Shown here piece by piece: positions 32,587 through 48,614 of a stretch of DNA of 64,000 bases (the first letter of the stretch is position 1; every line of letters begins with the position of its first letter). The notes beneath the pieces were generated by a model. The model was not told where the DNA came from. It did no database searches and saw only the letters and a list, made by a program, of their open reading frames with translations. Position numbers and translations under genes: made by a program. Source of the DNA: Chthonomonas sp. (GTDB lineage Bacteria > Armatimonadota > Fimbriimonadia > Fimbriimonadales > Fimbriimonadaceae); NCBI GenBank assembly GCA_016788585.1, contig JAEURP010000018.1, positions 62,001-126,000 on the forward strand. The letters run 5' to 3'.

Positions 32587-34332
32587 GTGATCACCCTCCT
32601 TGACCAGCAGATAGACCATGCAATGAAGCTCTTTAGCAATGATCAGCGCCAAAAGGGGCTTGAGCTGATGCAAAAGATTGTCGATGAGAACCCGCAGAAA
32701 GCAAACGCTGTGCATGGCCTCGCTATGATGATGCTCAACATGGATCGCCCAGAGGAGGCCAAACCGTTTCTTGAAAAGTCAATTGAACTTGAACCAAATA
32801 ATCCTGTTTATTACTGCAACTTCGGTGCCTTCTGGACGCGCATTAATGAGCACGAGAAGTCGCTGGAGTATCTCTTCAAAGCCATCGAGCTAAAGGACGA
32901 CTACACCGATGTAATGCTTAACATTGGCCACGTGATGAGCATGCTGGGTCGTTTCGATGAGGCTATCGAGTGGGCATCAAAAGCCCATGCCATCGTTCCG
33001 GGCGATGAGCAACTCACGATGAACCTGTACACGTACTTGCGTGATCAGGATTTTGAGAAGGGCTTCAAGTTTCTTCGCGAGAAGCTGGAAAGGTATGACC
33101 GGCCGCACTTTTGGCGGGTCGTCTGCAGCGACTCGCTTTATTCCGACCAGATTTCAGAAGAAGAAGTAGATCGTTTGCACTTCACACTGGGTGAGAAGGT
33201 AGCCGGGATTCCCCCCACCAAGCGCTACCTTTCTAAGGCCGATCCTGACAGGAAAATCCGCATTGGCTTTCTTTCGAGCGATCTACGCAGGCACTCGGTC
33301 TCGTTTTTCTTACTCGATTGGCTCCGCCAACTCGACAAGGATAAGTTTGAGGTGTATCTCTATTTGGCTATGGGGGCACCGGATGACATCACGGAGCTGT
33401 ACAAGGAAGTCGGGCATGTCGAGCTCGCGATGGTCAGCAAAATCCAGTCGCTGGTGAACCTCATTTACAACGACAAGATCGACATTCTTTATGACCTCAA
33501 CGGTCTAACGATTGGTGGACGCCCCGATGTGCTCGCTGTCAAGCCGGCTCCGATTCAAGTTTCGGCCATCGGTTACGCTCATTCTTTGGGGCTGAATCGA
33601 ATTGACTATCGCCTCGCGGATTCAATCACGGACCCGGAGGGCTCCGAGGTCCACTATGCAGAAAAACTCGTTCGGATCGAAGGTTGCTTCCTTAACTACG
33701 GCATCCTCGACCCCCTTCCCGACATTGAGGAAACGCCAGATCGCCCCGTCATTTTTGGATCTTTCAATAATCACCTCAAGATCAATCGAACAACTGTGAA
33801 ACTATGGGCGGACGTGATCAAGGCAAACCCTGGCTCAATCTTGCTTCTGAAGGCCCTTGGACTTAGGCACCCACCGATTCGCAAGGCAGTTATGGGTTGG
33901 TTCGAGGCCGAGGGCATTCGAGACGAGCTTCGCATTCTCGAACCCCAAGACGTGGTGGTCGATCACCAGGCTATGTATCGAGAGATCGACATCGCTCTCG
34001 ATACTTTCCCCTACAATGGAACCACGACTACGATGGAAGCACTCTTAATGGGAGTACCGGTCGTTACGTTGCAGGGAGATGTCCATCGAGGACGTGTGAG
34101 TAGCTCGCTCTTGATCAATGCTGGCTTGCCAGAGTATGTGGCACATTCTCCGAAGGAGTTCGTGGAAATAGCAAGCCGAGCTGCGAAGGACATCAAGGCG
34201 ATCCGTAACGGAAAGCAGGCGCTTCGCGATAAGATCAAGTCATCAAGTCTAATGGATTCTAAGGGTTACGCCAAGAAGATGGCCACCTTTATGGAGAAGG
34301 CCTGGCGGGACTACTGCGCAAGCCAAGCGTGA
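32587..34332 (+). CDS. TPR protein with OGT/SPINDLY-type (GT41) glycosyltransferase domain
   Basis: 581 residues. About four TPR repeats fill residues 10-145 (for example AVHGLAMMMLNMDRPEEAK and VYYCNFGAFWTRINEHEKSL). The GT41 domain then runs from about 215: RIGFLSSDLRRHSVSFFLLD, DILYDLNGLTIGGRPDVLA, APIQVSAIGYAHSLGLNRID, and the donor-site part IFGSFNNHLKINRTT, LDTFPYNGTTTTMEALLMGVPVV. The family O-glycosylates Ser/Thr of proteins, in bacteria often flagellin or surface proteins. The start is a GTG at 32587; an internal ATG is at 32623. The flagellar cluster begins 4.3 kb downstream, so flagellin is a candidate substrate, which is inference only. Confidence 0.87.
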   Translation: MITLLDQQIDHAMKLFSNDQRQKGLELMQKIVDENPQKANAVHGLAMMMLNMDRPEEAKPFLEKSIELEPNNPVYYCNFGAFWTRINEHEKSLEYLFKAIELKDDYTDVMLNIGHVMSMLGRFDEAIEWASKAHAIVPGDEQLTMNLYTYLRDQDFEKGFKFLREKLERYDRPHFWRVVCSDSLYSDQISEEEVDRLHFTLGEKVAGIPPTKRYLSKADPDRKIRIGFLSSDLRRHSVSFFLLDWLRQLDKDKFEVYLYLAMGAPDDITELYKEVGHVELAMVSKIQSLVNLIYNDKIDILYDLNGLTIGGRPDVLAVKPAPIQVSAIGYAHSLGLNRIDYRLADSITDPEGSEVHYAEKLVRIEGCFLNYGILDPLPDIEETPDRPVIFGSFNNHLKINRTTVKLWADVIKANPGSILLLKALGLRHPPIRKAVMGWFEAEGIRDELRILEPQDVVVDHQAMYREIDIALDTFPYNGTTTTMEALLMGVPVVTLQGDVHRGRVSSSLLINAGLPEYVAHSPKEFVEIASRAAKDIKAIRNGKQALRDKIKSSSLMDSKGYAKKMATFMEKAWRDYCASQA

Positions 34333-34342
34333 ACCCTCTGGA

Positions 34343-35275
34343 TTAGCCAAGATAGTCGAGCTCTTTGAGCAATCGTGGATTTTGTCGCCATTCTGGGCGC
34401 ACTTTCACAAAGAGCTCAAGGAACACCTTGCGACCGAGGACGGCTTCGATTTCTTCGCGCGCTTCGGACCCAATTCTCTTGATCATCTCACCACGCTTTC
34501 CAATGAGGATGGCTTTTTGTCCCTCCTTTTCGACCACCATCGAAATCAGGATTCTGGTGAGGTTTGGTTCATCGGTCCAGTCATCGACAATAGCTGCCAG
34601 AGCATGGGGGATTTCTTCTCGGGTCAGTCTCAAGGCCTTTTCGCGAACCAATTCAGCGGCAAGCCGGCGCATGGGCTGGTCGGTAACCTCATCCTCAGGA
34701 AAGAGCAATGGGCCGCACGGCAGCTGTGAAACAATCAGATCGACAAGCTTGGTGACGTTCAATCCCGCCTTCTTAGTAAGGCTGGTCATCATGATCTGCT
34801 CCGTCCCGTACAGTTTCGAGTAGGCCGCAAAGTGATCTTGAACGTCGACTGCCTTCAGCAGATCCATCTTGTTCATGCAGAGGATGACATTCGACTTGGC
34901 TTTACCATTGGTGTCGATCCATCCCTGCATTTTCAGGAGCCCGGCAATCGCTTCCTCATTCTTGTCCGGCTTTCTTGAGCCGTCAACCATAATTACGAGG
35001 ACATCGGCCCCTTCCAGACTGCCTTGAGCCGTCTCGTTGAGAATCTTGCCGAGGTGGGTGTGCGCTTTGTGAACGCCGGGAGTGTCGATAAGGACCAGTT
35101 GATAAGTATTGGTTGATGAAATCCCTAGGACGCGGTGCCGAGTTGTCTGCGCCTTGTCACTGACAATGCTCACTTTCTGACCAACGAGGAGGTTGGTCAG
35201 CGTGCTCTTTCCTGTATTCGGCTGGCCGACAAGCGCGACCATGCCGCACGGCCTATTCGCGCTTTCGGAAGACAA
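34343..35275 (-). CDS. era: GTPase Era
   Basis: 310 residues. G1 GQPNTGKSTLTNLLVG, G3 DTPGVHKAHTHLGK, G4 NKMD, and a C-terminal KH domain with LIGKRGEMIKRIGSEAREEIE. Era helps 30S maturation by binding the 3' end of 16S rRNA. The start at 35275 lies 22 bases inside the end of the preceding large gene; a later ATG at 35242 would begin exactly at the G domain. It converges with the OGT-like gene, ten bases apart. Confidence 0.96.
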   Translation of the reverse strand: MSSESANRPCGMVALVGQPNTGKSTLTNLLVGQKVSIVSDKAQTTRHRVLGISSTNTYQLVLIDTPGVHKAHTHLGKILNETAQGSLEGADVLVIMVDGSRKPDKNEEAIAGLLKMQGWIDTNGKAKSNVILCMNKMDLLKAVDVQDHFAAYSKLYGTEQIMMTSLTKKAGLNVTKLVDLIVSQLPCGPLLFPEDEVTDQPMRRLAAELVREKALRLTREEIPHALAAIVDDWTDEPNLTRILISMVVEKEGQKAILIGKRGEMIKRIGSEAREEIEAVLGRKVFLELFVKVRPEWRQNPRLLKELDYLG

Positions 35276-38200
35276 TGTTCATCTCCGCGATATCAAAGTC
35301 GCTCTGTTCCTGGCGCTTTCGGTTATCCCGTCGCCCCCGTCTTCGTCCTTGGTGCTGAGCGCGACGCTCGTGAATCGCTTGTTCAACCGGTTCCTCCACG
35401 GCCATAGTCTCTTCCAGTTCAGAAGGTTTGAAGACAAGGTCAGTAGCCATTTCTTCCGACCAACCTTCTTCAACCCAAGTGTCGACCTTCATGATTGGCA
35501 CATCGAAGTGCAGGTCATCAAAATGAAGCGTATTCTCGGCTCGCTCGGGAAGTTCATCGACCTTGAGTAGGTCATCGGTCGGGTGTCCGAGAATAGACTC
35601 GATCTCACTCTTGGAGCCAACCAAGAAGGTCTGCGTTTGTCCATCCGAAACGCTGAAGTTAATTTGGCCGCTATCGGTCGAGGTCCACTCTCGCCGCTGC
35701 AAGTTGTAGGCCGAGAGTTTCTCCGGAAGTGCGATCGTGCGCGTGCCAGTTCCGCTGGCATGGAGCGAAACAAATGGGCTCCTCGCATGCAGAAGATCTT
35801 CCTGGAAGTTCCAAACATGGGCCCCCGCCATTTGGCCGAGCGCTCTGAATAGCGCTGGAGTAACTACCGGTTCGCCCAAGAACACGCTTCGCCAGCGCGA
35901 TTTGGGGTCATCGTTGAACTCGCGCAAAACGAAGCTGGGGAGACCCGTGCCGGCATACTCGCCTAACACCATGCTGTCTTCGGGGATGGCGAAGTAACTT
36001 GGCTCCAATTGGCTTCCGCTGCTTAGCACGCTCTCCGGCAATGCTTCGCTGAGCGGGTGCTTTCGATGGACGATGGTCGTTCCACTCTTGCTAGCGAAGG
36101 GTTGTCGCTTCAATGCGATACCGGTCACCTCTCTCACTCGTTCCAAGGCGTTGCGGCCCGCGTCGAAAAGCCCTGCCGCGTACATCCAGAAGAGAACTTT
36201 GTTATCCCGCTGCAATCGGGCCTTGATGGCACTTCTCACTTCTGGTCGAATATCCCAGGCATTCAGGAACACATAGACTTTTGCTTCTGGGAACTGCTCT
36301 CGGTGAGCAAGGTCGCTCAGCAGGTAGAAACCTGCGCTGAGGCCAGAGCGTAGAACGGATTCGCGGACGTTTTGGACCAGCAATGTAAACGCACGTTGAT
36401 CGACAAGGTATGCGAGCGACCGCTCATCGATAAAGACAGCGACCTCGGGGTCGGCCTGCGGAACCGCCATACGGTTGATCAGGGTGTCGCGCACTTGGCT
36501 GGCCCGCTCCCAAATTCCAGGAGACCTTAACCAGCCATTTCCCCAAAGGTCCATCCAGCAGACCCCACCGCCGTGGGCCACAGCAGCACCGAGACCTCGC
36601 CAATGGACAGTCTCAAGGGATTGAGGAGTCTTCATTACCGGATTGAAATCATCGGGTTCGTACTTTGCCGTAATGGGGGTTTTGAAGTCCTCTTCGCTGA
36701 CATAGAGCTTCCCATTCAAAGCAAAGCTGTCAATCGGGCCAGGGAATGGACACGACCCTCCGGGCTCACGGTTCTTGTAGCTTGGTGGTCCGGCAATGAA
36801 ATCGACTTCGGGGTTGCGCAGAAGCTTGCCTAACGAAAGGTGCCCACTGGCAGGATGACTCCACTCAAACGTGTAGCCGTAACTAACGCCGACTAGGAAG
36901 TAGCCCGCACTGGCCTTCTTCACGACGTGAGCGAGCTTTCCAATTCTCTCGACGGTGATATCGCTCAGGAAGAGGTGGTAATCCACCCAGCGACGGGTCT
37001 TGCGTCCGGTACGAACGAATTCTTCTCCGGTTCGGATTTCTCCACTGTATTCGGGCACCGACAGAGTTTCAAATTGGGCCTGACCATCGAACCAACTCGC
37101 GCAGAGGGCGACATTGTCATTTCGATAGCGCATACGAACCCAGTCTCGGAAGGCTTCCTGAGCGGCGATCGACGTGTCGTAACCCCAACCAGCGGCAAAG
37201 AACCACTCCCCGCGCTCGAGGTGCACACCCATAATCTGATCGCTCTTGGGAAGGCTCCGGAGTTTGGTCGTGAAGTCGCTTAGGCAGTTGGCCGCGTCTC
37301 CCCAAAACTCTTCATCACAAACGCTTGGATCGCCAAGGCCTCCGCTTTCTGAGACGTATTTCGCCTTGCGATACGTCGATTCCCAGCCGGTAGCGGCAGT
37401 AAAGACCGTGCGGAACACCACTTGGGCATCTGGCGCTATTTCTAGCGTTCGATTCAAAAGATATCCGGCCGTTTGGACGGCTTCATCAGCCGTTCCATCT
37501 GAGTTGACTTCTAGATCGACATAATGGACGATGACCCCGACGCCCGCTTCAGCTGCGTACTTGATTTCCTCGAGCACGACATCGAGCCGCTTCTCATCCG
37601 AGGCATTGCCGAAAAAGAAGATGGGCGGGAACACCCGGTGATCACGGACCAGCGTGGGAATGCCATTGCGGACAAAAACCTGCGGAGCGTCCGATGGGAT
37701 TCGAACAAATTCTCGCCGAGGGGGCTCCGGCACTGGGGGAACGACAGGCACCGCGGGGGCTTCGGGCTCGTGGCGCGGTGATCGAGCCTCTCGTTCTCGC
37801 GGTTCCCTTGGGGCCCTCCGTGCTTGCTCCCGGTCCTTACCTGCTTCTCGAACTCGAAACATCGGAACTGGCACCACCTCGCCCGGCTCCAGCGCTATGC
37901 TGATCAACTCCCCTTGAGCCGGTTGTTCAACCTTGACTCGCTGGGTTGGCTGTGCCTTTTTCGGCGGTCTTTCGGTTTTGGCGTCCTTCTTGGGAGCTCC
38001 CAACCTTGGCCGCAGAGAGACAGACGGTAGTTTCTCGCCCGATACGTTGGAAATGAGACTAAACAGCGTGTGACCGTCTCGAGTTTCAGTTTGGTCGCCA
38101 GCGCCCTTCTTTGGTCGTCCTCTTGGTCGCTTGGGAGCCTGGGCCTCCTCAGGCGAGACCTCCTTCCTTGGCCGACCGCGCCCTCGCTTTGGCGCGTCGC

Positions 38201-38381
38201 TTGCTTCGGCTACAGGTTCCTTTCTTGGGCGTCCTCGACCTCGCTTTGGCGCATTCGGATCGACTTCAACGGGCGCTTTCTTGGGGCGCCCGCGGGGTTT
38301 CTTGGGGGCCGCTTCTTCGACGAGGTTTTCAGTGTCGACTTTTCGAGTGGGCTGGGTGACTTTGGATGATTTGAATAACAT
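35253..38381 (-). CDS. AT-hook protein fused to glycoside-hydrolase-like (GH42-related) body
   Basis: 1042 residues, no signal peptide. Residues 27-92 carry four AT-hook cores (RGRPKK or RGRPRK) at residues 30, 49, 68 and 87, an exact 19-residue period. Residues 93-240 are low complexity. From about 240 there is a globular region with PIFFFGNASDEKR, an IMGVHLERGEWFFAAGWGYD segment and AFRDWVRMRYRNDNVALCASW, which resemble GH42-type barrels with a possible acid/base Glu; YVSEEDFKT could hold a second. A flavodoxin-like segment (VAVFIDERSLAYL to VYVFLNAWDI) follows, like the GH42 trimerisation domain. The last 40 residues include an Arg-rich RRRGRRDNRKRQ. Function unknown; the hydrolase call is inference from pattern. 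It precedes era and overlaps it by 23 bases. Confidence 0.7.
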   Translation of the reverse strand: MLFKSSKVTQPTRKVDTENLVEEAAPKKPRGRPKKAPVEVDPNAPKRGRGRPRKEPVAEASDAPKRGRGRPRKEVSPEEAQAPKRPRGRPKKGAGDQTETRDGHTLFSLISNVSGEKLPSVSLRPRLGAPKKDAKTERPPKKAQPTQRVKVEQPAQGELISIALEPGEVVPVPMFRVREAGKDREQARRAPREPREREARSPRHEPEAPAVPVVPPVPEPPRREFVRIPSDAPQVFVRNGIPTLVRDHRVFPPIFFFGNASDEKRLDVVLEEIKYAAEAGVGVIVHYVDLEVNSDGTADEAVQTAGYLLNRTLEIAPDAQVVFRTVFTAATGWESTYRKAKYVSESGGLGDPSVCDEEFWGDAANCLSDFTTKLRSLPKSDQIMGVHLERGEWFFAAGWGYDTSIAAQEAFRDWVRMRYRNDNVALCASWFDGQAQFETLSVPEYSGEIRTGEEFVRTGRKTRRWVDYHLFLSDITVERIGKLAHVVKKASAGYFLVGVSYGYTFEWSHPASGHLSLGKLLRNPEVDFIAGPPSYKNREPGGSCPFPGPIDSFALNGKLYVSEEDFKTPITAKYEPDDFNPVMKTPQSLETVHWRGLGAAVAHGGGVCWMDLWGNGWLRSPGIWERASQVRDTLINRMAVPQADPEVAVFIDERSLAYLVDQRAFTLLVQNVRESVLRSGLSAGFYLLSDLAHREQFPEAKVYVFLNAWDIRPEVRSAIKARLQRDNKVLFWMYAAGLFDAGRNALERVREVTGIALKRQPFASKSGTTIVHRKHPLSEALPESVLSSGSQLEPSYFAIPEDSMVLGEYAGTGLPSFVLREFNDDPKSRWRSVFLGEPVVTPALFRALGQMAGAHVWNFQEDLLHARSPFVSLHASGTGTRTIALPEKLSAYNLQRREWTSTDSGQINFSVSDGQTQTFLVGSKSEIESILGHPTDDLLKVDELPERAENTLHFDDLHFDVPIMKVDTWVEEGWSEEMATDLVFKPSELEETMAVEEPVEQAIHERRAQHQGRRRGRRDNRKRQEQSDFDIAEMNIVFRKRE
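38106..38294 (-). repeat. Four tandem 57-base units encoding AT-hooks
   Basis: The codons for residues 30-92 of the large protein repeat with a 57-base period, each unit ending in a RGRP(K/R)K core and an Ala/Pro-rich spacer. Spacers differ in sequence but not in length. Confidence 0.75.
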
Positions 38382-38624: not shown

Positions 38625-40268
38625 ATGGAAATCAACTTGCTACAACTATTTGGAACGGTCCCGGGCATTCCCTTGGGGGCCAAACCCGAGGTGCCGGGAG
38701 GTTTTGCCGAGTTTCTTCAGGCAGCCTCTCCGCCCAATTGGCCGCCGGGGATTGCCAAGGCCATACCCACGGCAGCCACCACCAACGAGAACGGGAAAGA
38801 ACTCTCAATACAGCCGAATGCTAGAGAAACTGAACTGGACCCCGACTCGAAGAGCCCGAGCACAGCGGATGCACAGTTGGCCTGCCAAATGTTCGCCGGC
38901 GCTCCCATCGTGGTTTTGTCATCGGAGGCATCTCCAAATCCGGAATTCGCAACGCCGATCAAGACAACTCGCCAGGTGATTCCTGCGTGGAGCCCAAGCA
39001 CTAGCAACTCCCTACCTTCGAACTGGCAAGTGCCAGAGCTTACTCCTCGGTCGCAGACTCGGAACCAGATCAGTATCCCGGCATTCACTTCATGGGCGGT
39101 TGCGATTCCCCAAGCCGGCGTCATGCCGAGTTTTGAGATCATCAATCCGAATCCACGACCTGAGATTCCAACGATTGACTTCTCACAACCCTTCGGCCCC
39201 CAAATTGGTAATTTCATGGGCTTTGATCGGCCAAAGGTTGTTCCTCAGGAGTCGCCGGCGGTGGCGATTTCTGGATTGGTTCGAAACGAGCCGGCTTCGG
39301 TGACGCTCGATCCCAAGATGATCGAGACTCTTGGCGTTGTCGCAATGGAGGGTAGCGGCTTTGCTGAAGAAGCGATTCCCGCTAACACTCCTCCCGAAGT
39401 ACCCGTCGAAACGGAGCTTCCCACTCCTAGCCGCAGCGTTACCGCCGATCAGGCCAATCCAGTGAAGAACCCGGTTCAGGATCAGGCTTTGGCGACCTTC
39501 ACTCAGCTCATTGAGGGGAAGAGGGTCGAAGGCACTCGAGTCCAACAGGTTGTGGCAAGCCCACCTAAAACTGACGTGGTAGCGGTGAAGGCTGAGCCAA
39601 GAGCCGAAAAAGAAGCGATTGGAAAGGAAATCTTGACTGACCTTCCAGATGAACCAGCGGCCCCCATGTTGATCGAAAAGGAGGAGCCAACTAGTATCGA
39701 ATTGGCCCACGAGCCAATCGACGAAGAAGGCCCGGAAGTTCTTGACGTAAAGACCCGTCCAGCAGAGGAGCCGAAAGCGGCCACGTCATCAGTTGCGACA
39801 CTGCACCAACCGCAAGAGAGATTAGCCGAGACGAAGGCAAGTCGGCCTTCTGGGCTCGCGCCCGTCGAACAGCGTCAAGTCCTTGAGCAGACGATCGAGC
39901 GACTGGATCGCATGGCGATTCACCGTCCGCTGAGCCAAATGGTTATTCGGCTCATGCCAAAGGAACTCGGTGAGATTACGCTTACCGTCAAGAGTGTCGG
40001 TTCGCGTTCTGAGGCAACAGTCGAGGCAACCGACCCACGCGTCGCCCAAGCTCTCCAAGTGGAGCAACCGAAGCTTCAGCAAACCATCGAGGCTAAGGGA
40101 TTTAGCCTCTCATCTCTCACTTTCCAATTCAATGACCGGAGCCATCAAGAGGCTCCGCACACCGAAACTCCTCGTCCCATGGCGTCATCTTCTGAGCAAG
40201 ATGTGCCCCCGACCAACAGCCCGAATCACACCATCAGCGGTTCGGACAACCTTAATCTGGTGATCTAA
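38625..40268 (+). CDS. fliK: Flagellar hook-length control protein, FliK-like
   Basis: 547 residues. The long N-terminal part is Pro/Ala/Glu/Ser-rich and low in complexity, as usual for FliK rulers. The conserved C-terminal Flg_hook domain is at about residues 420-510: LSQMVIRLMPKELGEITLTV, then EATVEATDPRVAQALQVEQPK (its E-x2-V-A-Q core) and QTIEAKGFSLSSLTF. This domain switches export specificity from hook to filament. The start follows a good GGGAG ribosome binding site, and flgD begins two bases after the stop. Confidence 0.85.
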   Translation: MEINLLQLFGTVPGIPLGAKPEVPGGFAEFLQAASPPNWPPGIAKAIPTAATTNENGKELSIQPNARETELDPDSKSPSTADAQLACQMFAGAPIVVLSSEASPNPEFATPIKTTRQVIPAWSPSTSNSLPSNWQVPELTPRSQTRNQISIPAFTSWAVAIPQAGVMPSFEIINPNPRPEIPTIDFSQPFGPQIGNFMGFDRPKVVPQESPAVAISGLVRNEPASVTLDPKMIETLGVVAMEGSGFAEEAIPANTPPEVPVETELPTPSRSVTADQANPVKNPVQDQALATFTQLIEGKRVEGTRVQQVVASPPKTDVVAVKAEPRAEKEAIGKEILTDLPDEPAAPMLIEKEEPTSIELAHEPIDEEGPEVLDVKTRPAEEPKAATSSVATLHQPQERLAETKASRPSGLAPVEQRQVLEQTIERLDRMAIHRPLSQMVIRLMPKELGEITLTVKSVGSRSEATVEATDPRVAQALQVEQPKLQQTIEAKGFSLSSLTFQFNDRSHQEAPHTETPRPMASSSEQDVPPTNSPNHTISGSDNLNLVI

Positions 40269-40269
40269 C

Positions 40270-40893
40270 ATGGCAGAAATCTCCTCCGTTGCATCGTCCT
40301 TTTTTGGCATGACGCCGGCTAAGCCGAAGTCAGAGCTGAACATGGCGACCTTTATTCGGTTGCTCACAATCCAGTTGGCCAATCAAAACCCGCTGGAGCC
40401 TATGAACGACCGTGACTTCTTTGCCCAGATGGCCCAATTGGGTCAAGTGCAGGGAAGTGAGAACATGACCAATCAGCTCAAAACCATGCAGGCGGCGAGC
40501 TTCATTGGTAAAACCATTCGGGCCACGATTACTCGTTCTGACGGAGCTCCATCCGAGGAGACATTCGGTCGAGTCATTGGTATGGACGTCAAGAATGGTG
40601 AGCAAATCTTGAAGGTCCAAGAGGCCGACGGCGGTCTTGTCGATGTCAGATTTGAGAACATCCTCAGCATGACCGACATTCAGGTCCAATATCCTCCGAT
40701 GCCGACTTTGGCGGACGCGACTTCCTTAATTGGGCGCACCGTTACGGCTAAGAACGGCGACTCTACTATTACGGGTCAAGTTTGGGGTGCGTCGCTTGTC
40801 AATGGCGTTCCAACTGTGACCGTTCATGGCGAGGATGGAACGATCTACCAAGTCGCCTATGATCAGATTCGATCCGTTGTACCAACCCAATGA
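40270..40893 (+). CDS. flgD: Flagellar hook assembly (hook-capping) protein
   Basis: 207 residues. The N-terminal FlgD signature is clear: FIRLLTIQLANQNPLEPMND, RDFFAQMAQLGQVQGSENM. The C-terminal half forms beta strands typical of the FlgD tudor/FnIII-like parts. FlgD caps the growing hook and guides FlgE polymerisation. Its stop overlaps the start of the next gene by four bases. Confidence 0.94.
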   Translation: MAEISSVASSFFGMTPAKPKSELNMATFIRLLTIQLANQNPLEPMNDRDFFAQMAQLGQVQGSENMTNQLKTMQAASFIGKTIRATITRSDGAPSEETFGRVIGMDVKNGEQILKVQEADGGLVDVRFENILSMTDIQVQYPPMPTLADATSLIGRTVTAKNGDSTITGQVWGASLVNGVPTVTVHGEDGTIYQVAYDQIRSVVPTQ

Positions 40894-41258
40894 GCTCCCC
40901 TATTCAAAACTACCGAATTGCCGAGCTGCTGCAGACACAGCAGACGACGCCCCAGATTAAGCCCCAAGTGGGCGGGGGCCCTGCCTTTGATGAGATTCTG
41001 GCGAATCGCCTCAAGGTTTCGGGTCACGCACAGACCAGACTCCAGAGTCGCGACCTGCAACTCGATAAGGGGGCCTGGGAGCGCGTGATTGGGGGCGTCG
41101 AGCGAGCGGCTCAGAAAGGAGCGAAAGAAAGTTTGGTGCTCGTCGATGACGTCGCTCTGGTTGTATCCGTGAAAAACAAAACGGTCATTACGGCAGTGGA
41201 TCAGGCGCGATTAAAGGATAACGTCTTCACCAATATTGACAGCGCGATCGTTGTCTGA
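40890..41258 (+). CDS. Flagellar operon protein (TIGR02530 family)
   Basis: 122 residues. The core SGHAQTRLQSRDLQLDKGAW, KGAKESLVLVDDVALVVSVK and NKTVITAVDQA match the small flagellar-operon protein family found between flgD and flgE in Gram-positive and related bacteria. Function is unknown; position and conservation suggest a role in hook assembly. The start overlaps flgD (ATGA). Confidence 0.9.
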   Translation: MSSPIQNYRIAELLQTQQTTPQIKPQVGGGPAFDEILANRLKVSGHAQTRLQSRDLQLDKGAWERVIGGVERAAQKGAKESLVLVDDVALVVSVKNKTVITAVDQARLKDNVFTNIDSAIVV

Positions 41259-41288
41259 AACCTAAAGCAGATTGCCAATTTTGAACTC

Positions 41289-41315
41289 TAATGATGTTCA
41301 GAAAAGGCCCGATAA
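41289..41315 (+). promoter_or_regulatory. Sigma-28-like promoter candidate upstream of flgE
   Basis: TAATGATG (41289-41296), exactly 11 bases, CCCGATAA (41308-41315). The -10 box matches the sigma-28 (FliA) consensus GCCGATAA in seven of eight bases and the -35 box matches TAAAGTTT in five of eight. It would give a leader of about 140 bases before flgE. Confidence 0.5.
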
Positions 41316-41365
41316 AACTATCGGATTCGTCGTCCGAGAACAAGCAAAACAGAGCAAAAGCCGGA

Positions 41366-41384
41366 TCGCACAAGGCATTGTGCG
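41366..41384 (+). promoter_or_regulatory. Perfect hairpin in the flgE leader
   Basis: TCGCACAA (41366-41373), GGCA, TTGTGCGA (41377-41384), following a smaller CCGATA/TATCGG stem at 41309-41324. There is no T-run, so it is not a terminator; it may stabilise the leader or act in post-transcriptional control. Confidence 0.5.
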
Positions 41385-41462
41385 AAAGCGAGCGGGCCAG
41401 CCGAATGCTGAACTGCACACTCCGTATGCGAAGTTCTCCCTAACCTAGTCGAGTAAGAACTT

Positions 41463-42740
41463 ATGCTACAAGCTATGCTAGCCGGCGTTGCGAGTATTAA
41501 AGCTCAGCAAACCCGAATGAACATCATCGGCAACAACCTTGCCAACGTCAACACTACTGCGTTCAAGGGAGGTCGTGTGACTTTCCAAGATATGATCGCC
41601 CAGACCATTCGTGGTGCCAGCCGCCCGACCGAATACAGTGGTGGTACGAACCCCATTCAGTACGGATTGGGCGTTTTGGTTGCCGGTACGGACGTCAACA
41701 ACGAGCAGGGCTCGTTGGCGGCCACGAACCGACCGAGCGACCTTGCCATCCAAGGCAATGGCTTTTTCTTGGTAAGTAATAGCTCCCGAATTGGGTACAC
41801 CCGGGACGGTGCGTTCGACCTTGATGCCGAGGGCATTCTGGTTCAGCGATCTACCGGCGAGCGCCTAGTCGGTTGGGCTGCAGATGACGACGGTGGAGTG
41901 AACACTCAGAATCCACTCAGCCCGACCAGCTACATCTCGATCCCTCTTGGTTCGTTGAATGCAGTTCAAGCGACAACCCGAGCCACTGTAACTGGAAACC
42001 TCAATGCTGAAGCAACTGGTACGGATACTTGGGATGTTGTGATGACGGTTTACGATTCGCTAGGCGGTAGCCACGATATCCGGGTTCAGTTCAAGAACCG
42101 CCTCGCTCCTCCGGCCGCTGGCGCCCCTGCTGGCGCAACCGCCAGCTGGGAGTGGGAAGCCTTTGAAGGCACTACCTCAATTGGCTCAAGTGCAACCGCA
42201 GGTAACGAACCTCTCTATTTTGATGCTAATGGTGCCAGGCTGAATTCGACGATAATGGGGGGAATCACTCTTCCAGCTGCTGGTGGCGCCATGGCGCAGG
42301 CCATTTCGCTCGACTTCTCTGGGATCAGTCAACTGAAGGCCGAAAGCAACGTGACGCCAAGTAGCCAAAATGGTTATCCACCAGGATCACTCCAGGGCTA
42401 CAGCATTGGACCAGATGGCGTCGTGACGGGATTGTTCACAAATGGTCTGACGCGGTCGTTGGGTCAAATCGCCATGGCGGTGTTCAGTAATCCGGCGGGT
42501 CTTGAGCGCACCGGTAACAACCTTTGGCGACAGACGGACAACTCAGGCATCCCGCTCACTGGTGCACCTCGTTCCGGCGGTCGTGGAAGCATTAACGCTG
42601 GCTTCTTGGAGCAGTCGAACGTCGATATCTCCAACGAGTTCACTGACTTGATCGTTACGCAGCGAGGCTTCCAAGCCAACACGAAAGTGGTTTCGACAGT
42701 AGACGAAATGCTGCAAGATCTCATTAACATGAAGCGATAA
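41463..42740 (+). CDS. flgE: Flagellar hook protein
   Basis: 425 residues. The N-terminal rod/hook signature is MLQAMLAGVASIKAQQTRMN, IIGNNLANVNTTAFKGGRV. Domain motifs GYTRDGAFDLDAEG and the C-terminal LEQSNVDISNEFTDLIVTQR, AFQANTKVVSTVDEML-type helix (QRGFQANTKVVSTVDEML) are standard. FlgE polymerises into the hook. Length is typical. A long leader with a sigma-28-like promoter precedes it and a strong terminator follows at 42762. Confidence 0.97.
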   Translation: MLQAMLAGVASIKAQQTRMNIIGNNLANVNTTAFKGGRVTFQDMIAQTIRGASRPTEYSGGTNPIQYGLGVLVAGTDVNNEQGSLAATNRPSDLAIQGNGFFLVSNSSRIGYTRDGAFDLDAEGILVQRSTGERLVGWAADDDGGVNTQNPLSPTSYISIPLGSLNAVQATTRATVTGNLNAEATGTDTWDVVMTVYDSLGGSHDIRVQFKNRLAPPAAGAPAGATASWEWEAFEGTTSIGSSATAGNEPLYFDANGARLNSTIMGGITLPAAGGAMAQAISLDFSGISQLKAESNVTPSSQNGYPPGSLQGYSIGPDGVVTGLFTNGLTRSLGQIAMAVFSNPAGLERTGNNLWRQTDNSGIPLTGAPRSGGRGSINAGFLEQSNVDISNEFTDLIVTQRGFQANTKVVSTVDEMLQDLINMKR

Positions 42741-42761
42741 TCATAGGCTGGCTTTGAACTT

Positions 42762-42794
42762 GGGGCACGAGATTCTCGTGCCCCTTTCTTGTTT
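42762..42794 (+). terminator. Rho-independent terminator between flgE and flgB
   Basis: GGGGCACGAG (42762-42771), ATT, CTCGTGCCCC (42775-42784), then TTTCTTGTTT. A perfect 10-base stem. It separates the hook block from the basal-body block, so the latter needs its own promoter in the remaining 120 bases. Confidence 0.95.
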
Positions 42795-42912
42795 AACCCT
42801 ACAGAACCCCGTAATTCTGCCAATACACCAATTGGAGCGGAGTACACCTTCGATCCAGGCAAGCCAGGATGGTTAGCCTCAAGAGCAGGGATGCGCAGAC
42901 GGAGAAACTACC

Positions 42913-43275
42913 GTGGCGCTATTAGATGGAATTTTTGGACCGCACGTGAACAACCTTTCGCGGTCAATGAAGCAGGCGAGCCTGCGGCACAACTTGCTAA
43001 GTGAAAACTTGGCCAATGTAAACACGCCGGGCTACAAGCGAAAGGACATAGACTTTGGTATCGAACTCGAGAAGGCAAGCTCAAGAATGATCGATAAGAG
43101 GCATGGCGCCATGATCAAAAAGAGTGACGGCGGCCTTCGTCGCGATGGCAACAGCGTTGACCTCGAGTCTGAAGTAGCAAACATGGCCGAGACCGAATTT
43201 AGGTATCGGCTGCTGACCGATATGACCAATCGATACTTTACCGGCCTGAAAAGCGTGATCCGGGAGGGAAGGTAA
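42913..43275 (+). CDS. flgB: Flagellar basal-body rod protein FlgB
   Basis: 120 residues from a GTG at 42913. Rod signature LRHNLLSENLANVNTPGYKRKDIDF at about residues 24-45 (its N-L-A-N-V-N-T-P-G-Y core) and C-terminal AETEFRYRLLTDMTNRYF, the helical pair that packs in the proximal rod. It is the first gene of the block after the terminator and is followed by flgC after four bases. Confidence 0.94.
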   Translation: MALLDGIFGPHVNNLSRSMKQASLRHNLLSENLANVNTPGYKRKDIDFGIELEKASSRMIDKRHGAMIKKSDGGLRRDGNSVDLESEVANMAETEFRYRLLTDMTNRYFTGLKSVIREGR

Positions 43276-43279
43276 GTAG

Positions 43280-43666
43280 ATGAGCATCGGAAGCACCATG
43301 CGCGTTAGTGCGAGCGGCATGACAGCAGAGCGATTCCGGATGGACGTCATCAGCGGCAACATTGCCAATGCGAACACGGTCCAGAAGCCGGGCCAACCTG
43401 AAGTGCGGCGCCAAAGTGTCGTGTTGCGACAGGCTAGAGAAGGCGTAGCCATTGAGGATATCGCCCCTGACCAGACGCCGCTTCGCCGCGAGTACGACCC
43501 AGGGAACCCCAACGCCATTAACGGTTGGGTGACCTATACCAACATTAACCCAGTTTTCGAGATGGTGGACATGATTGGGGCAAGCCGCGCCTACGAGGCC
43601 AATCTTGCCGCCTTCAACACCGCAAAGCAGATGATGAATGCCGCGCTAAGTATTGGCAAGGCATAA
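43280..43666 (+). CDS. flgC: Flagellar basal-body rod protein FlgC
   Basis: 128 residues. N-terminal SASGMTAERFRMDVISGNIA and C-terminal NPVFEMVDMIGASRAYEANL, AFNTAKQMMNAALSI are the usual FlgC signatures. The middle DQTPLRREYDPGNPNAIN loop corresponds to the FlgC-specific DPxxPxA segment. It builds the proximal rod with FlgB and FlgF. Confidence 0.95.
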   Translation: MSIGSTMRVSASGMTAERFRMDVISGNIANANTVQKPGQPEVRRQSVVLRQAREGVAIEDIAPDQTPLRREYDPGNPNAINGWVTYTNINPVFEMVDMIGASRAYEANLAAFNTAKQMMNAALSIGKA

Positions 43667-43678
43667 GAGTAATTCACC

Positions 43679-43969
43679 ATGCGCATTGATAATGCAACAG
43701 CTAACCTGAAGCTCAGCGAGCATCTTGCCAAGAAGCAAGAGGCATCCACTGAGAACTTTGGCGAGGCGCTGATGGACGCCCTGAAGGAAGTCAACTCTTC
43801 GCAGCTACAAAGCCGCGAGAAGCAAGAAGCACTCATGGCGGGTCAGCCGGTGGATGTAGATGATCTGATGATCTCGATGGAGCGAGCGAGCGTCGCGATG
43901 CAACTCACGATGCAAGTGCGCAATAAGGTCTTAGAGGCCTACCAAGAAGTCATGAGAACCCAAATCTAA
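43679..43969 (+). CDS. fliE: Flagellar hook-basal body complex protein FliE
   Basis: 96 residues. Typical FliE: FGEALMDALKEVNSSQLQSRE, then DVDDLMISMERASVAMQLTM and a C-terminal QVRNKVLEAYQEVMRTQI. FliE links the MS ring to the rod. Confidence 0.94.
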   Translation: MRIDNATANLKLSEHLAKKQEASTENFGEALMDALKEVNSSQLQSREKQEALMAGQPVDVDDLMISMERASVAMQLTMQVRNKVLEAYQEVMRTQI

Positions 43970-44004
43970 CCTAACGGCGACATCAAAGGAATGATGCGCG
44001 AACA

Positions 44005-45639
44005 ATGGTCTCTTTTCTAGAACAAATCAAAGCTTGGTGGCTCGGACTCGATCGGACGCAACGTCCGATTTGGATTCTTGGCGGAGGTCTCTTGACCGCC
44101 CTACTCGTCGTCGCCTTCATGCTCAGTAGCCGACCAAGTATGAGTCTGCTCTTCGGTGGCCTGAGCCCTGCCGACCAGGGAATGGTAGTTCAAGAACTTA
44201 ACAAGATGGGGATCTCCGCCGAGTACGACACAAACGGCAATGTTCTGGTCCCCGGCAATAAGGTCTCCGAAGCGAGAGCAAAGCTCGCGGTAGCCAAAAA
44301 GCTCCCTCAGGGCGGCAATCTCGGCTACGGGGCTCTGGACAACATGAATTCCATGATGGTCTCGCCCGAAGTAGAAAAAGTGAAGATCAAAGCCGCTATG
44401 GAAGGCGATCTCGCGAATTCGATTCAGATGATGAGTGGGATTTCCGCGGCCAAGGTCACCTTAACTCTTCCTGACAATACGCCCTTTGCTGCCGAACAAA
44501 AGCCGGCCGGTGCCAGCATTGTTGTGACGCAAGACGGAGGCGTGTCTTTGAGTGCTGAGCAAGCGCAGGCGATTGTTCGCTTGGTGCAGTTTGGTGTTTC
44601 TGGGCTTGGAGCTGAGCGAATCGTGGTGATGAACGACCGTGGTCAGCGGCTCTACGATGGAGCCGAAGCCACAGGCATCAATGCAAGTGCCGACAAGAAA
44701 GTGCAGGCGGAAATTGCCGAGGCGCGACGTCGTGAGCAGGAATTGCAGGCCAAGCTCGATGCCGCTTTCGGCGTCGGCAACACAATCGTTTCGATTCCGA
44801 TGATCAACTTGAACTTCGATAAGATTCATGAAAACAGCGTCATCAAGCAACCCACGCCAAAGCCGGTAAGCATTGATACGACCGAGGAAACCATGGCGGA
44901 CGCTAATGGTTCTTCAGCGATGGGCGCTGCAGGCACAACTTCGAACTTACAGGCACCGGCCGAAGGATCGAGCACGGACAAGAAATCGTACTCCGGTACA
45001 ACCAAGAGCGCGACTTATGACATGAACGTCACCGAAAAGAGCATTGAGCGAAGCGCCGGTGTTCTTGAAGGAATGACGCTGAGTGTCTTGGTAAACAGCG
45101 CCAACATCACCGATACAGCCCCGGTCGAGGAGTACATCCAGAACTATCTTGGCCCCCTTTCACAGCAGACCGACAAGTTTAAGGCGAGCGTCACGAGCAC
45201 GGCCTTCGACAAGACGGCGACCGAAGGAATGAAGGCCGCCCAGTCCGGCGCCGCATCACGCAACATCACCCAGCAGTTGATGGCGATTCTACCAATCGCT
45301 GCACTGATCCTGGTTGGGTTCTTGATTACCAAAGCAATCAGCAAGGCCACACCACGCCCCGGACAAGCGACAGCAGTCGCTCTTCCGGGTGGCGGAACCC
45401 TCTCGCTACCACCTGGGGCTCTGAACGGTGATCCCAATCAGCTCATTGCCCTCGAAGGTGCTGATATTGCCAATGCCTTGAATACCAGGGCCGTTCAGAA
45501 CAGCGAACCTCCGGTTCCGATCGAAGATATTCCTGACAAGGTGAACGTTCCTCTCGAGCAAATTAAGAAGATGGCCAGCACTCGCCCCGAGACTGTAGCA
45601 AGCTTGCTTAAGACCTGGATGTTGGAGGAGACGCGATGA
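44005..45639 (+). CDS. fliF: Flagellar MS-ring protein FliF
   Basis: 544 residues. Two membrane helices: about residues 24-44 (PIWILGGGLLTALLVVAFML) and about 430-450 (LPIAALILVGFLITKAI). Between them are the ring-building motifs, with MSLLFGGLSPADQGMVVQEL, then MNSMMVSPEVEKVKIKAAME, GDLANSIQMMSGISAAKVTL (YscJ/FliF domain) and a periplasmic low-complexity loop near 300. The C-terminus holds the FliG-binding tail (PLEQIKKMASTRPETVASLLK). Overlaps fliG by four bases. Confidence 0.96.
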   Translation: MVSFLEQIKAWWLGLDRTQRPIWILGGGLLTALLVVAFMLSSRPSMSLLFGGLSPADQGMVVQELNKMGISAEYDTNGNVLVPGNKVSEARAKLAVAKKLPQGGNLGYGALDNMNSMMVSPEVEKVKIKAAMEGDLANSIQMMSGISAAKVTLTLPDNTPFAAEQKPAGASIVVTQDGGVSLSAEQAQAIVRLVQFGVSGLGAERIVVMNDRGQRLYDGAEATGINASADKKVQAEIAEARRREQELQAKLDAAFGVGNTIVSIPMINLNFDKIHENSVIKQPTPKPVSIDTTEETMADANGSSAMGAAGTTSNLQAPAEGSSTDKKSYSGTTKSATYDMNVTEKSIERSAGVLEGMTLSVLVNSANITDTAPVEEYIQNYLGPLSQQTDKFKASVTSTAFDKTATEGMKAAQSGAASRNITQQLMAILPIAALILVGFLITKAISKATPRPGQATAVALPGGGTLSLPPGALNGDPNQLIALEGADIANALNTRAVQNSEPPVPIEDIPDKVNVPLEQIKKMASTRPETVASLLKTWMLEETR

Positions 45640-46646
45640 GGAAGACCACAGTTGAAGTTGGGCCTCGCCAGAAAGCTGCCATCCTTCTGACTTTGCTTGG
45701 TGCCGAACCTGCTGCCAATGTGATCTCTCAGCTTAACGAGGAAGAAATCGAGTTTCTCGCGCTGGAGGTTGCCCGATTGGACAAAGTGCCCGTCGATGTT
45801 CGCGAGCAGGTCATCAATGAGTTTCATGGAATGGCGACCGCCCAAGCGTTTATTTCTGAAGGCGGTGTCGATCAGGCGAGAAAGATGCTCGAAGGTGCAC
45901 TGGGTCAAGAGCGCGCCGACGTGGTCGTTCGAAAGATCACTAATGCGATGCAAGTGGTGCCGTTCGACTTTCTGAAGCGAGCCGACCCGACCCAGGTCTT
46001 GAGCTTCATCCAAGATGAGCATCCCCAGACGATCGCCCTGATCCTCTCTTATATGCCGATGAATCAGTCGGCTTCGATTCTTACCAAGCTCACTCCAGAG
46101 CTCCGCGCCGATGTTGCGGAACGAATTGCGATGATGGAGCAGACGCCACCAGAGGTGATTCGCAGGGTCGAGCAAGTTCTGGAGCGAAAGGTCGCGAGCC
46201 TTATCAACACCGACATGACCAAAGCCGGCGGTCCAAAGATGCTCGTGGACTTGCTCAACCGAGTGGATCGTTCCACCGAACGAATCATTATCGAAAACCT
46301 TAGCGAAACCAACCCTGAACTGGCCGACCAGATCAAGAACATGATGTTCGTGTTTGAAGACATTGTCACGCTCGATGATCGTGCCATCCAGTCTGTGTTG
46401 AAGGAGATCGACGTACGAGACCTTGCAACCGCATTGAAGGGTACGCCAGAGGAGGTCCAAGAAAAGATCTACAAGAACATGTCTGAGAGAGCCGTGAACA
46501 TGCTGAAGGAAGACATGGAGTTCATGGGACCAGTCAAGTTGCGCGTGGTCGAAGAGGCTCAGCAGAAGTTCGTAGCAGTGATCCGAAGGCTAGAAGAAGC
46601 GGGCGAGATTCAGATCGGACGTGGTGAGGAGGATGTGCTTGTCTGA
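45636..46646 (+). CDS. fliG: Flagellar motor switch protein FliG
   Basis: 336 residues. N-terminal QKAAILLTLLGAEPAANVIS, middle domain HPQTIALILSYMPMNQSASI with EHPQT, and the C-terminal torque domain with MFVFEDIVTLDDRAIQSVLK, ALKGTPEEVQEKIYKNMS and VEEAQQKFVAVIRRLEEAGE. It transmits torque from the stator to the MS ring. Its stop overlaps the fliH start region. Confidence 0.97.
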   Translation: MRKTTVEVGPRQKAAILLTLLGAEPAANVISQLNEEEIEFLALEVARLDKVPVDVREQVINEFHGMATAQAFISEGGVDQARKMLEGALGQERADVVVRKITNAMQVVPFDFLKRADPTQVLSFIQDEHPQTIALILSYMPMNQSASILTKLTPELRADVAERIAMMEQTPPEVIRRVEQVLERKVASLINTDMTKAGGPKMLVDLLNRVDRSTERIIIENLSETNPELADQIKNMMFVFEDIVTLDDRAIQSVLKEIDVRDLATALKGTPEEVQEKIYKNMSERAVNMLKEDMEFMGPVKLRVVEEAQQKFVAVIRRLEEAGEIQIGRGEEDVLV

Positions 46647-47289
46647 TCCTGCGGTTCGAAACACCGGGATTTTTGAAACGGTTACAGAAGACAAGCTTCG
46701 AGCGGCTCGATCGCGTTCGACGACTCGTTCGCGAGCTCTCGACGCCGCGCGAGAAGAGGCCAAGCAATCGGCCTATGCCGAGGCATTCGAGCTGGGGCAA
46801 GTTGCTGGGTACGCGGAAGGGTTTGAAACCGGCCGCCAAGAGGCTGTGGCTCGGTTCACGGCGGAGTTGGAAGTTGAACTTGAACAAATCACCAAGGAGA
46901 TCCAGGCAACATTCGACCAACTCACATCTGCCGTTGAGAGCTTTTATCTGGATGCGGAGAAGCAACTTGCCGCGGTGGCCAAGGATGTCGTCGCGCGTGT
47001 CCTCGATGCCGAGCTCAACATTACGGAGGACGCGATCATCGGAATCGTTCGCGCAGCGATTAGTGAAGTGGCGCAAAGTAGGGAGGTGGTCGTTCGCCTA
47101 AACACGGCCCACAAGCCGTTGCTGGAGGCAAACAGGGAATCGCTACTCCGCGCGTTTTCAAGCATCAAGTCATTGGAGTTCATCTCTGATCCTGACATCA
47201 CTCACGGCTGCATTGTCGAAGGCAGCCACGGTTCGGTTGATGCAACGCTGAACGCCACTCTGCGACTTATCGAAGGGGAGGCGGCATGA
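46639..47289 (+). CDS. fliH: Flagellar assembly protein FliH
   Basis: About 216 residues. Charged helical N-terminus (EDKLRAARSRSTTRSRALDA), a G-x-x-x-G-like run (GQVAGYAEGFETGRQEAVARF) and a C-terminal V-ATPase E-subunit-like domain with KDVVARVLDAELNITEDAII and HGCIVEGSHGSVDATLNA. FliH is the negative regulator of the FliI ATPase. The TTG at 46639 is preferred because AGGAGG ends six bases before it; GTG and ATG codons at 46621 and 46633 are alternatives. The overlap with fliG is 8 bases. Confidence 0.85.
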   Translation: MSDPAVRNTGIFETVTEDKLRAARSRSTTRSRALDAAREEAKQSAYAEAFELGQVAGYAEGFETGRQEAVARFTAELEVELEQITKEIQATFDQLTSAVESFYLDAEKQLAAVAKDVVARVLDAELNITEDAIIGIVRAAISEVAQSREVVVRLNTAHKPLLEANRESLLRAFSSIKSLEFISDPDITHGCIVEGSHGSVDATLNATLRLIEGEAA

Positions 47290-48614
47290 GCGCGATTATT
47301 CCGAGGCGAAAGCCGAACCTCATTCGCGAATTTCGCCGACTCAAGTCCACGCCTTTAAGGGAGTCGTCGGGAGTGGTTGTGCAAGTCGTTGGGTTGGTGG
47401 TGGAAGCCAATGGACCGAGTTGCCGAGTCGGTGATCTTTGCTGGATCGAGACCGGTGTTTCGGAACGAATCCCCGCCGAGGCTGTTGGCTTTCGGGATCA
47501 CCGAACGCTCCTCATGCCCCTTGGCAAAATGGAGGGTGTCCGGGCCGGTTGCATTGTACGTTCGACGGGTCGCCAAATTAGTGTTCCATCCGGTGAAGGA
47601 CTTCTTGGACGCGTGGTCAATGGCATCGCCGAGCCAATGGATTCGGGGCCAGCTATTTGCGCCGAGACCTTCTACCCATTAGAGGGCGACGCGCCCAACG
47701 CGATGGAACGAACGATGATTCATCGCCCATTTGGCACGGGAGTGAAGGCGATAGATGGCGTGCTAACGATGGGAGTTGGGCAGCGAATGGGGATCTTTGC
47801 CGGTTCGGGCGTCGGTAAGAGCACTCTTTTGGGCATGATCGCTCGCCACAGCACGGCGGACGTCAATGTGATTTGCCTGGTTGGTGAGCGAGGCAGGGAA
47901 GTGCGCGAATTCATGGAGCACGACCTTAGCGATGCTTTGGAAAAGAGCGTTGTCGTTTGCGCGACCAGCGACGAACCAGCCTTGATGCGGGTGAAGGCGG
48001 CATTCGCCGCAACGGCCATCGCCGAGTCTTTCCGAGATCAGGGGCTGGACGTGATGCTCATGATGGACTCGGTAACGCGTTTTGCGATGGCGCAAAGGGA
48101 AGTGGGACTCGCCATCGGCGAGCCACCAAGCGCGAAGGGCTATACGCCAAGCGTGTTCGCGATGTTGCCGCGACTGATGGAACGAACCGGATGCGGAAAG
48201 AAAGGCTCGATTACCGCCATCTACACGGTGCTCGTCGATGGTGACGACAATAACGAGCCGATTGCCGATGCGGCGAGATCCATTCTCGATGGTCACATTG
48301 TGCTCAGCCGCAAGCTAACCAGTCGGGGGCACTATCCACCCATCGACGTGATTCAATCCTTGAGCCGTGTCATGCCAATGGTCGTGCAGTCTGAGCAAGT
48401 CGTGGCGGCGAATCGCATGAGGGAACTGCTCGCGGCCTACGCCGAAGTGGAAGACCTTGTTGCCCTGGGTGCCTATAAAGAAGGGAGCAAGCCAGTCAGC
48501 GACGAAGCCATTTCCAAGTGGACCGCGATCAATGACTTCTTACGGCAGGACAAGTCGGCTGGTGTCGATTTCATTTCAAGTGTGCAAAACCTAAAGGAGA
48601 TCGCGCATGGCTAA
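47286..48614 (+). CDS. fliI: Flagellum-specific ATP synthase FliI
   Basis: 442 residues. Walker A FAGSGVGKSTLLGMIARH, VCLVGERGREVREF-type motif (NVICLVGERGREVREFMEHD), Walker B region LDVMLMMDSVTRFAMAQREV and the arginine-finger stretch KGYTPSVFAMLPRLMERTG. FliI is the hexameric ATPase of the flagellar type III export apparatus. Overlaps of four bases with fliH and eight with fliJ. Confidence 0.97.
   Translation: MSAIIPRRKPNLIREFRRLKSTPLRESSGVVVQVVGLVVEANGPSCRVGDLCWIETGVSERIPAEAVGFRDHRTLLMPLGKMEGVRAGCIVRSTGRQISVPSGEGLLGRVVNGIAEPMDSGPAICAETFYPLEGDAPNAMERTMIHRPFGTGVKAIDGVLTMGVGQRMGIFAGSGVGKSTLLGMIARHSTADVNVICLVGERGREVREFMEHDLSDALEKSVVVCATSDEPALMRVKAAFAATAIAESFRDQGLDVMLMMDSVTRFAMAQREVGLAIGEPPSAKGYTPSVFAMLPRLMERTGCGKKGSITAIYTVLVDGDDNNEPIADAARSILDGHIVLSRKLTSRGHYPPIDVIQSLSRVMPMVVQSEQVVAANRMRELLAAYAEVEDLVALGAYKEGSKPVSDEAISKWTAINDFLRQDKSAGVDFISSVQNLKEIAHG

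Follow-up and report, generated by a model that had tools for sequence, protein, structure and literature searches.

Why should a bacterial protein join four AT-hooks to a body that looks like a glycoside hydrolase, and is the combination more than an oddity of one genome? The question arises from a single open reading frame (ORF) of 1042 amino acids on the minus strand of a 64,000-nt stretch of Chthonomonas sp. (contig JAEURP010000018.1, positions 62,001 to 126,000; hereafter the window), in which an initial annotation, made from the letters alone, had recognised four hooks, a body of the type found in glycoside hydrolase family 42 (GH42) and a basic C-terminal tail. All of these are present in the translation (Table 1), and what deserves attention is a whole subfamily of tailed proteins spanning the phylum, normally single-copy, rather than one hook fusion. 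We propose, as a reading to which we give an even chance of being right, that the protein serves in the cytoplasm as a GH42-fold platform, which the tails would tether to nucleic acid (in this genus, to DNA) and for which catalysis would be optional.

A tailed subfamily near-universal in its class

When the whole protein was used as query, every one of the 35 good-quality genomes in the relatives set proved to have an orthologue, as did 107 of 113 class genomes (87 of the 88 of good quality). Two matches occur in a few genomes and look like split or fragmentary ones. Orthologue counts throughout refer to distinct sequences, which need not represent independent lineages. The named relatives belong to Fimbriimonadaceae, Fimbriimonadales and other Armatimonadota, a few of them under generic or evidently wrong names of metagenome-assembled genomes, and the starts of some orthologue ORFs were picked by rule. 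A phylum survey, in which 151 Armatimonadota genomes were searched with the protein body, separated two tiers of matches outside the class. The first, one per genome at E values of 1e-96 to 1e-151, came from families f8, f12, f17, f26, f28 and f37, and all 20 of its members that were retrieved carry long tails with basic clusters; members of the second, at E values of 1e-75 or weaker and in up to ten copies per genome, mostly have signal-like N-terminal segments and no basic tails. Secreted GH42-like paralogues (L106–L119) share with the window protein a homologous body and the GEW and E[ED]D motifs, but differ in that they mostly have N-terminal hydrophobic, signal-like segments, are without basic tails and often occur several to a genome.

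No hydrophobic N-terminal stretch is visible in the window protein by inspection (no signal-peptide program was run), in agreement with the initial annotation, which had seen no signal peptide and argued that the protein would meet DNA. The same annotation had allowed that the fusion would be a lone accident if close homologues lacked the hooks. They do not, since all five sampled members of the genus have hooks, and with orthologues in nearly every genome of the class a lone-accident fusion can be rejected.

The body has a GH42 fold without strict GH42 membership

With the full-length window protein as query, neither Pfam, NCBIfam nor a single-sequence search of the PDB gave anything useful. 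The body alone gave a structural model of high confidence (mean predicted local distance difference test score, pLDDT, 92.7; predicted template modelling score, pTM, 0.93) with the three-domain fold of GH42, and the nearest PDB chains in Foldseek were GH42 enzymes (3tts, E 3.1e-22, template modelling scores 0.67/0.71) and an Ignavibacterium beta-1,2-glucosyltransferase. VIA-align aligned the body with 3tts over 601 residues (Z 23.4, root-mean-square deviation 3.4). A profile of 58 orthologues matched GH42 beta-galactosidases of the PDB (E 8.6e-4), and 42 of these 58 matched the Pfam family PF02449 (best E 1.4e-6), whereas the window body scored 11.2 bits against a gathering score of 21. Thus, with a fold that matches GH42 and a PF02449 score below the cut-off, the modelled body is a complete GH42 architecture, yet falls outside GH42 in the strict Pfam sense. 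The profile search and structure prediction that had been suggested as a check of the GH42-like call therefore recovered a hydrolase fold, and the contrary outcome, a body matching none, did not arise.

Known GH42 beta-galactosidases (3tts, 1kwg, 4uni, 5dfa) likewise show the three-domain architecture over ~600 aligned residues, with one glutamate near the end of beta4, and have another at the end of beta7, the place that E563 may occupy. The window protein differs from them in its low identity (11–15%), in its position below the Pfam cut-off and in having GEW instead of the Asn-Glu dyad after beta4, where, by alignment only, G391-E392 stands opposite NE of the GH42 chains; GE occupies the dyad position in most orthologues and in the secreted paralogues. 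The family as a whole differs in its long basic N- and C-terminal tails, predicted to be disordered, and in the absence of catalytic residues from some orthologues.

Candidate catalytic residues are missing from some lineages

The position of E392, the candidate acid/base, is glutamate in 104 of 113 tailed orthologues, and that of E563, the candidate nucleophile, in 105 of 113; both are glutamate in 12 of 12 secreted paralogues. In the model, the strand that ends with E563 is compatible with beta7, as judged by strand position without residue-level superposition. One or both glutamates are missing in eleven orthologues, which nevertheless keep their tails. Seven of these form the largest loss group in the tree, with replacements such as N/L, G/L, S/L and P/D, and one of the seven (I/E) is without the first glutamate only. 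A tree built with the two catalytic columns masked required at least four changes to the glutamate-lacking state, by a quick method and with some long branches.

The body stays constrained in those of them that were compared. By pairwise approximation, the ratio of non-synonymous to synonymous divergence (dN/dS) of the body was 0.007 in the L083/L084 pair, where the candidate nucleophile is missing. For L054/L179, a pair with both glutamates lost, body dN was 0.061 and synonymous sites were saturated. Moreover, the aromatic and acidic residues W393, D402, Y501, W609, D611 and W617, which lie in the same motif regions, do not vary in sets where some members lack the catalytic pair. On these sequence comparisons, the simplest reading is that lineages without the pair keep a folded, probably ligand-binding, non-hydrolytic protein. 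Because some orthologues have lost catalytic residues, activity of the barrel would depend on lineage, and of the two options in the initial annotation, an active enzyme or else a scaffold, the latter is the better guide.

The same data could also describe an active cytoplasmic glycosidase or glycosyltransferase, with turnover under selection, tails that only localise it and pair-less lineages as exceptions of changed mechanism or role. We think this rather unlikely. More than 90% of orthologues and every one of the 12 secreted paralogues examined have both glutamates, the fold neighbours are active enzymes, and a gene for a HAD-family phosphatase-like protein directly upstream in 23 of 61 loci (f1, f2, f3, f4 and f8) would fit sugar-phosphate metabolism; but such an enzyme is hard to square with repeated change to the glutamate-lacking state under constraint on the body, where compared, and retention of the tails, or with the missing asparagine that precedes the GH42 acid/base.

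Predicted disordered tails with basic clusters

In the full-length model, pLDDT falls below 50 at residues 1–159, 173–204 and 961–1042, which are thus predicted to be disordered. The N-tails of orthologues have a median length of 282 residues and a median of four basic clusters; at least two clusters are present in 106 of 113 N-tails and at least one cluster or patch in 109 of 113 C-tails, as against none of 12 secreted paralogues. Charge blockiness of the tails exceeded that of shuffled sequences (family median z 4.8; 87% above z 2), so that a disordered tail with arginine-rich alternating charge blocks, as in RNase E, is a property of the family and a marginal one in the window member. Class members mostly begin with MPRKK or similar and finish with FRKR plus one residue. 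Among 51 aligned class members R1039 is invariant and F1038 at least 90% conserved, the V[VML]FRKR end is strongly enriched over shuffles in class orthologues, and [VIL]x[FW]R recurs in class N-tails (76 observed, 4.7 expected by shuffling). Other proteins with the tail motif were sought by two routes: a C-terminal DNA pattern search of the window's genome yielded no other IVFRKR followed by a stop, and a scan of 51 non-overlapping ORFs in the window found several basic clusters only in the window protein and a few apparent ribosomal proteins.

Tails of this kind might be low-complexity drift, or might serve solubility or a polyphosphate or membrane target, with no role in nucleic-acid binding. 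Their length and sequence vary greatly, their net charge is not uniformly positive, and N-tail dN/dS (0.13–0.45) is above that of the body where synonymous sites are unsaturated. Drift would, however, hardly leave basic clusters near-universal, keep an MPRKK start and an FRKR end, or preserve hook cores at saturated synonymous distance, and we regard this explanation as very unlikely.

AT-hooks as the genus-level form of the tail

The four RGRP[KR]K cores of the window protein have the basic flanks expected of an AT-hook protein and are spaced 19/19/19, as first described. When its N-tail was shuffled 20,000 times, two cores never appeared and one core appeared 16 times. The first hook scored 17.5 bits with Pfam AT_hook (PF02178) against a cut-off of 17.4, the other three scored below it (12.8–16.0), and no AT_hook match above the cut-off was found elsewhere in the window's genome. 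In a different genome (G017), a match above the cut-off lies in a 1130-residue frame (G017:C154:2573-2599); the G017 orthologue is on another contig.

Among the orthologues compared, repeated RGRP hooks are restricted to the window's genus, whose five sampled members have three (G002) or four each (G000, G001, G003, G004). The exact interval of 19 residues did not hold up as a genus trait: spacing varies from 17 to 31 (19/19/19, 19/17/17, 19/19 and 25/31/26), and a functional 19-residue register is accordingly rejected. In pairwise dN/dS comparisons between the window's species and its genus mates, synonymous sites are saturated or nearly so; the cores have been kept over this distance while the spacing shifted, which argues that the hook cores are held by selection and the spacing is not. 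Within the window's genome the repeat units are only 57–80% identical at the DNA level, and a recent tandem duplication is for this reason not favoured as their sole origin; an old duplication is likely. Judged from the sequences, the AT-hooks are the genus-level form of the general basic tail of the family.

A precedent is Myxococcus xanthus CarD, a bacterial protein in which four RGRP hooks in a disordered tail bind AT-rich DNA and are joined to a folded, partner-binding domain (PMC4374960). In CarD, however, the hooks are C-terminal, the folded part binds RNA polymerase instead of being a GH42 body, and DNA binding is experimental; for the window protein it is predicted.

Gene neighbourhood and a possible link to RNA

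The downstream neighbour had been named as era, which encodes a GTPase of 16S rRNA maturation, and its NCBIfam Era score (329.8 bits, cut-off 237) bears this out; the longest era ORF overlaps the GH42-fold gene by 23 nt. In all 29 informative loci of f1, f3 and f5, era lies directly downstream; the two genes overlap by up to 26 nt or stand at most 6 nt apart in 28 of them, and the remaining locus has 164 nt between them. Translational coupling to a downstream era holds for most of the class. Family f2 is without it, no instance appeared in the other classes examined, and era as a fixed functional partner is thereby weakened. The HAD-family gene is the more widely spread neighbour; in the window a flagellar cluster stands upstream in its place, and the genus mate G002 has the HAD gene. 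Since operon partners swap, neither era nor the HAD gene yields a firm function.

HAD-like, tailed GH42-fold and era genes form a three-gene run in L052, L054, L056, L059–L061, L066, L068, L069, L073 and L075; in f2 and f8 the grouping comprises just the HAD and GH42-fold genes. Elsewhere in the window, a protein with tetratricopeptide repeats (TPR) and a glycosyltransferase-41 (OGT/SPINDLY-like) domain is encoded two genes away (32587-34332, plus strand), between a glycogen-synthase-like gene and era. The flagellar cluster (38625-48614, plus strand), divergent from the AT-hook gene, contains fliK-, flgD-, flgE-, flgB-, fliF-, fliG- and fliI-like genes as recognised by eye.

Table 1. Features of the tailed GH42-fold gene and its downstream neighbour in the window
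Feature	Residues	Window coordinates	Strand	Basis or remark
Whole gene, tailed GH42-fold protein	1–1042	35253..38381	-	
N-terminal tail bearing the AT-hooks, net charge ~+21	1–225	37707..38381	-	Predicted disorder to ~204; charge count
AT-hook 1, RGRPKK	30–35	38277..38294	-	Core pattern; Pfam AT_hook above cut-off
AT-hook 2, RGRPRK	49–54	38220..38237	-	Core pattern; Pfam match below cut-off
AT-hook 3, RGRPRK	68–73	38163..38180	-	Core pattern; Pfam match below cut-off
AT-hook 4, RGRPKK	87–92	38106..38123	-	Core pattern; Pfam match below cut-off
Loose copy of recurrent tail motif, VPMFRVR	172–178	37848..37868	-	VPMFR fits [VIL]x[FW]R only loosely; left out of motif count
GH42-type body: barrel, middle domain, C-terminal beta domain	226–940	35562..37706	-	Structure model; fold and profile matches
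Candidate acid/base, GEW just after beta4	E392	37206..37208	-	Role by alignment only
Candidate nucleophile, SEED motif, beta7 end	E563	36693..36695	-	Role by position only
C-tail basic patch RRRGRRDNRKRQ	1013–1024	35310..35345	-	Read from sequence; predicted disordered
C-terminal motif IVFRKR	1036–1041	35259..35276	-	Alignment of class members
era, downstream neighbour (context only)		34343..35275	-	NCBIfam Era

The era coupling would suit tails whose targets are RNA or ribosomal particles and which condense as Caulobacter RNase E does, the AT-hooks being a mere basic block with no DNA targeting. Arginine-rich charge blocks can gather RNA in RNase E, which likewise has an enzyme-fold domain and a disordered tail of such blocks, but its body is a nuclease, its tail is at one end only, and it binds RNA and forms bacterial ribonucleoprotein bodies (PMC10412687). 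The charge-block pattern and the RRRRRGGRGRGRR-type tails in which members of other classes end point the same way. We consider this unlikely for two reasons: the era coupling does not extend to f2 or, as far as was seen, to other classes, and the exact RGRP core, present throughout the sampled genus, would not be required for general RNA binding.

Proposed role

We return to the proposed platform. Computation gives the fold, predicted disorder, distribution, conservation, catalytic losses and selection; nucleic-acid binding, a trimeric state and a scaffold role are what we infer beyond it. The protein would be a core, apparently cytoplasmic protein of Armatimonadota whose GH42-fold body sits between two disordered tails with basic blocks, the tails holding it on nucleic acid, and on DNA in the AT-hook genus. 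GH42 enzymes are usually trimers; if the body is one too, each particle would carry some twelve hooks, by which DNA segments could be bridged. The conserved job of the body would probably be binding, of a sugar or a partner, together with scaffolding, hydrolysis being possible where both glutamates are kept, as in the window lineage, and absent where they are lost.

Several points weigh against this proposal. Both glutamates persist in most orthologues, so that in most lineages the protein may function chiefly as a catalyst. The acid/base and nucleophile were assigned by alignment and strand position, not by superposition, and the number of independent losses is uncertain because the largest loss group has long branches. 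The net charge of N-tails is modest overall and about zero or negative in some orthologues, and the window protein's own tail has a modest charge-block score (z 1.8).

A more specific version, which we advance tentatively and hold to be rather doubtful, is a phylum-specific nucleoid- or RNA-associated architectural protein derived from a domesticated glycosidase: a sugar-binding GH42-fold particle, dead in some lineages, whose AT-hooks or basic blocks would possibly link carbohydrate status to the organisation of DNA or RNA.

Searches of the open-access literature on Armatimonadetes and AT-hooks, on glycoside hydrolases and AT-hooks and on GH42 pseudoenzymes returned nothing on this protein, and the union of a glycosidase fold with tails of nucleic-acid type is an architecture without description in the literature searched. 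The gene is a near-universal, single-copy gene of its class, in an understudied phylum, and encodes an uncharacterised protein. Natural loss of its catalytic residues under strong purifying selection provides a ready experiment for separating catalytic from non-catalytic roles of a glycoside hydrolase fold, and the evolution of DNA-binding tails can be tested on the genus-level shift that turned generic basic blocks into AT-hooks.

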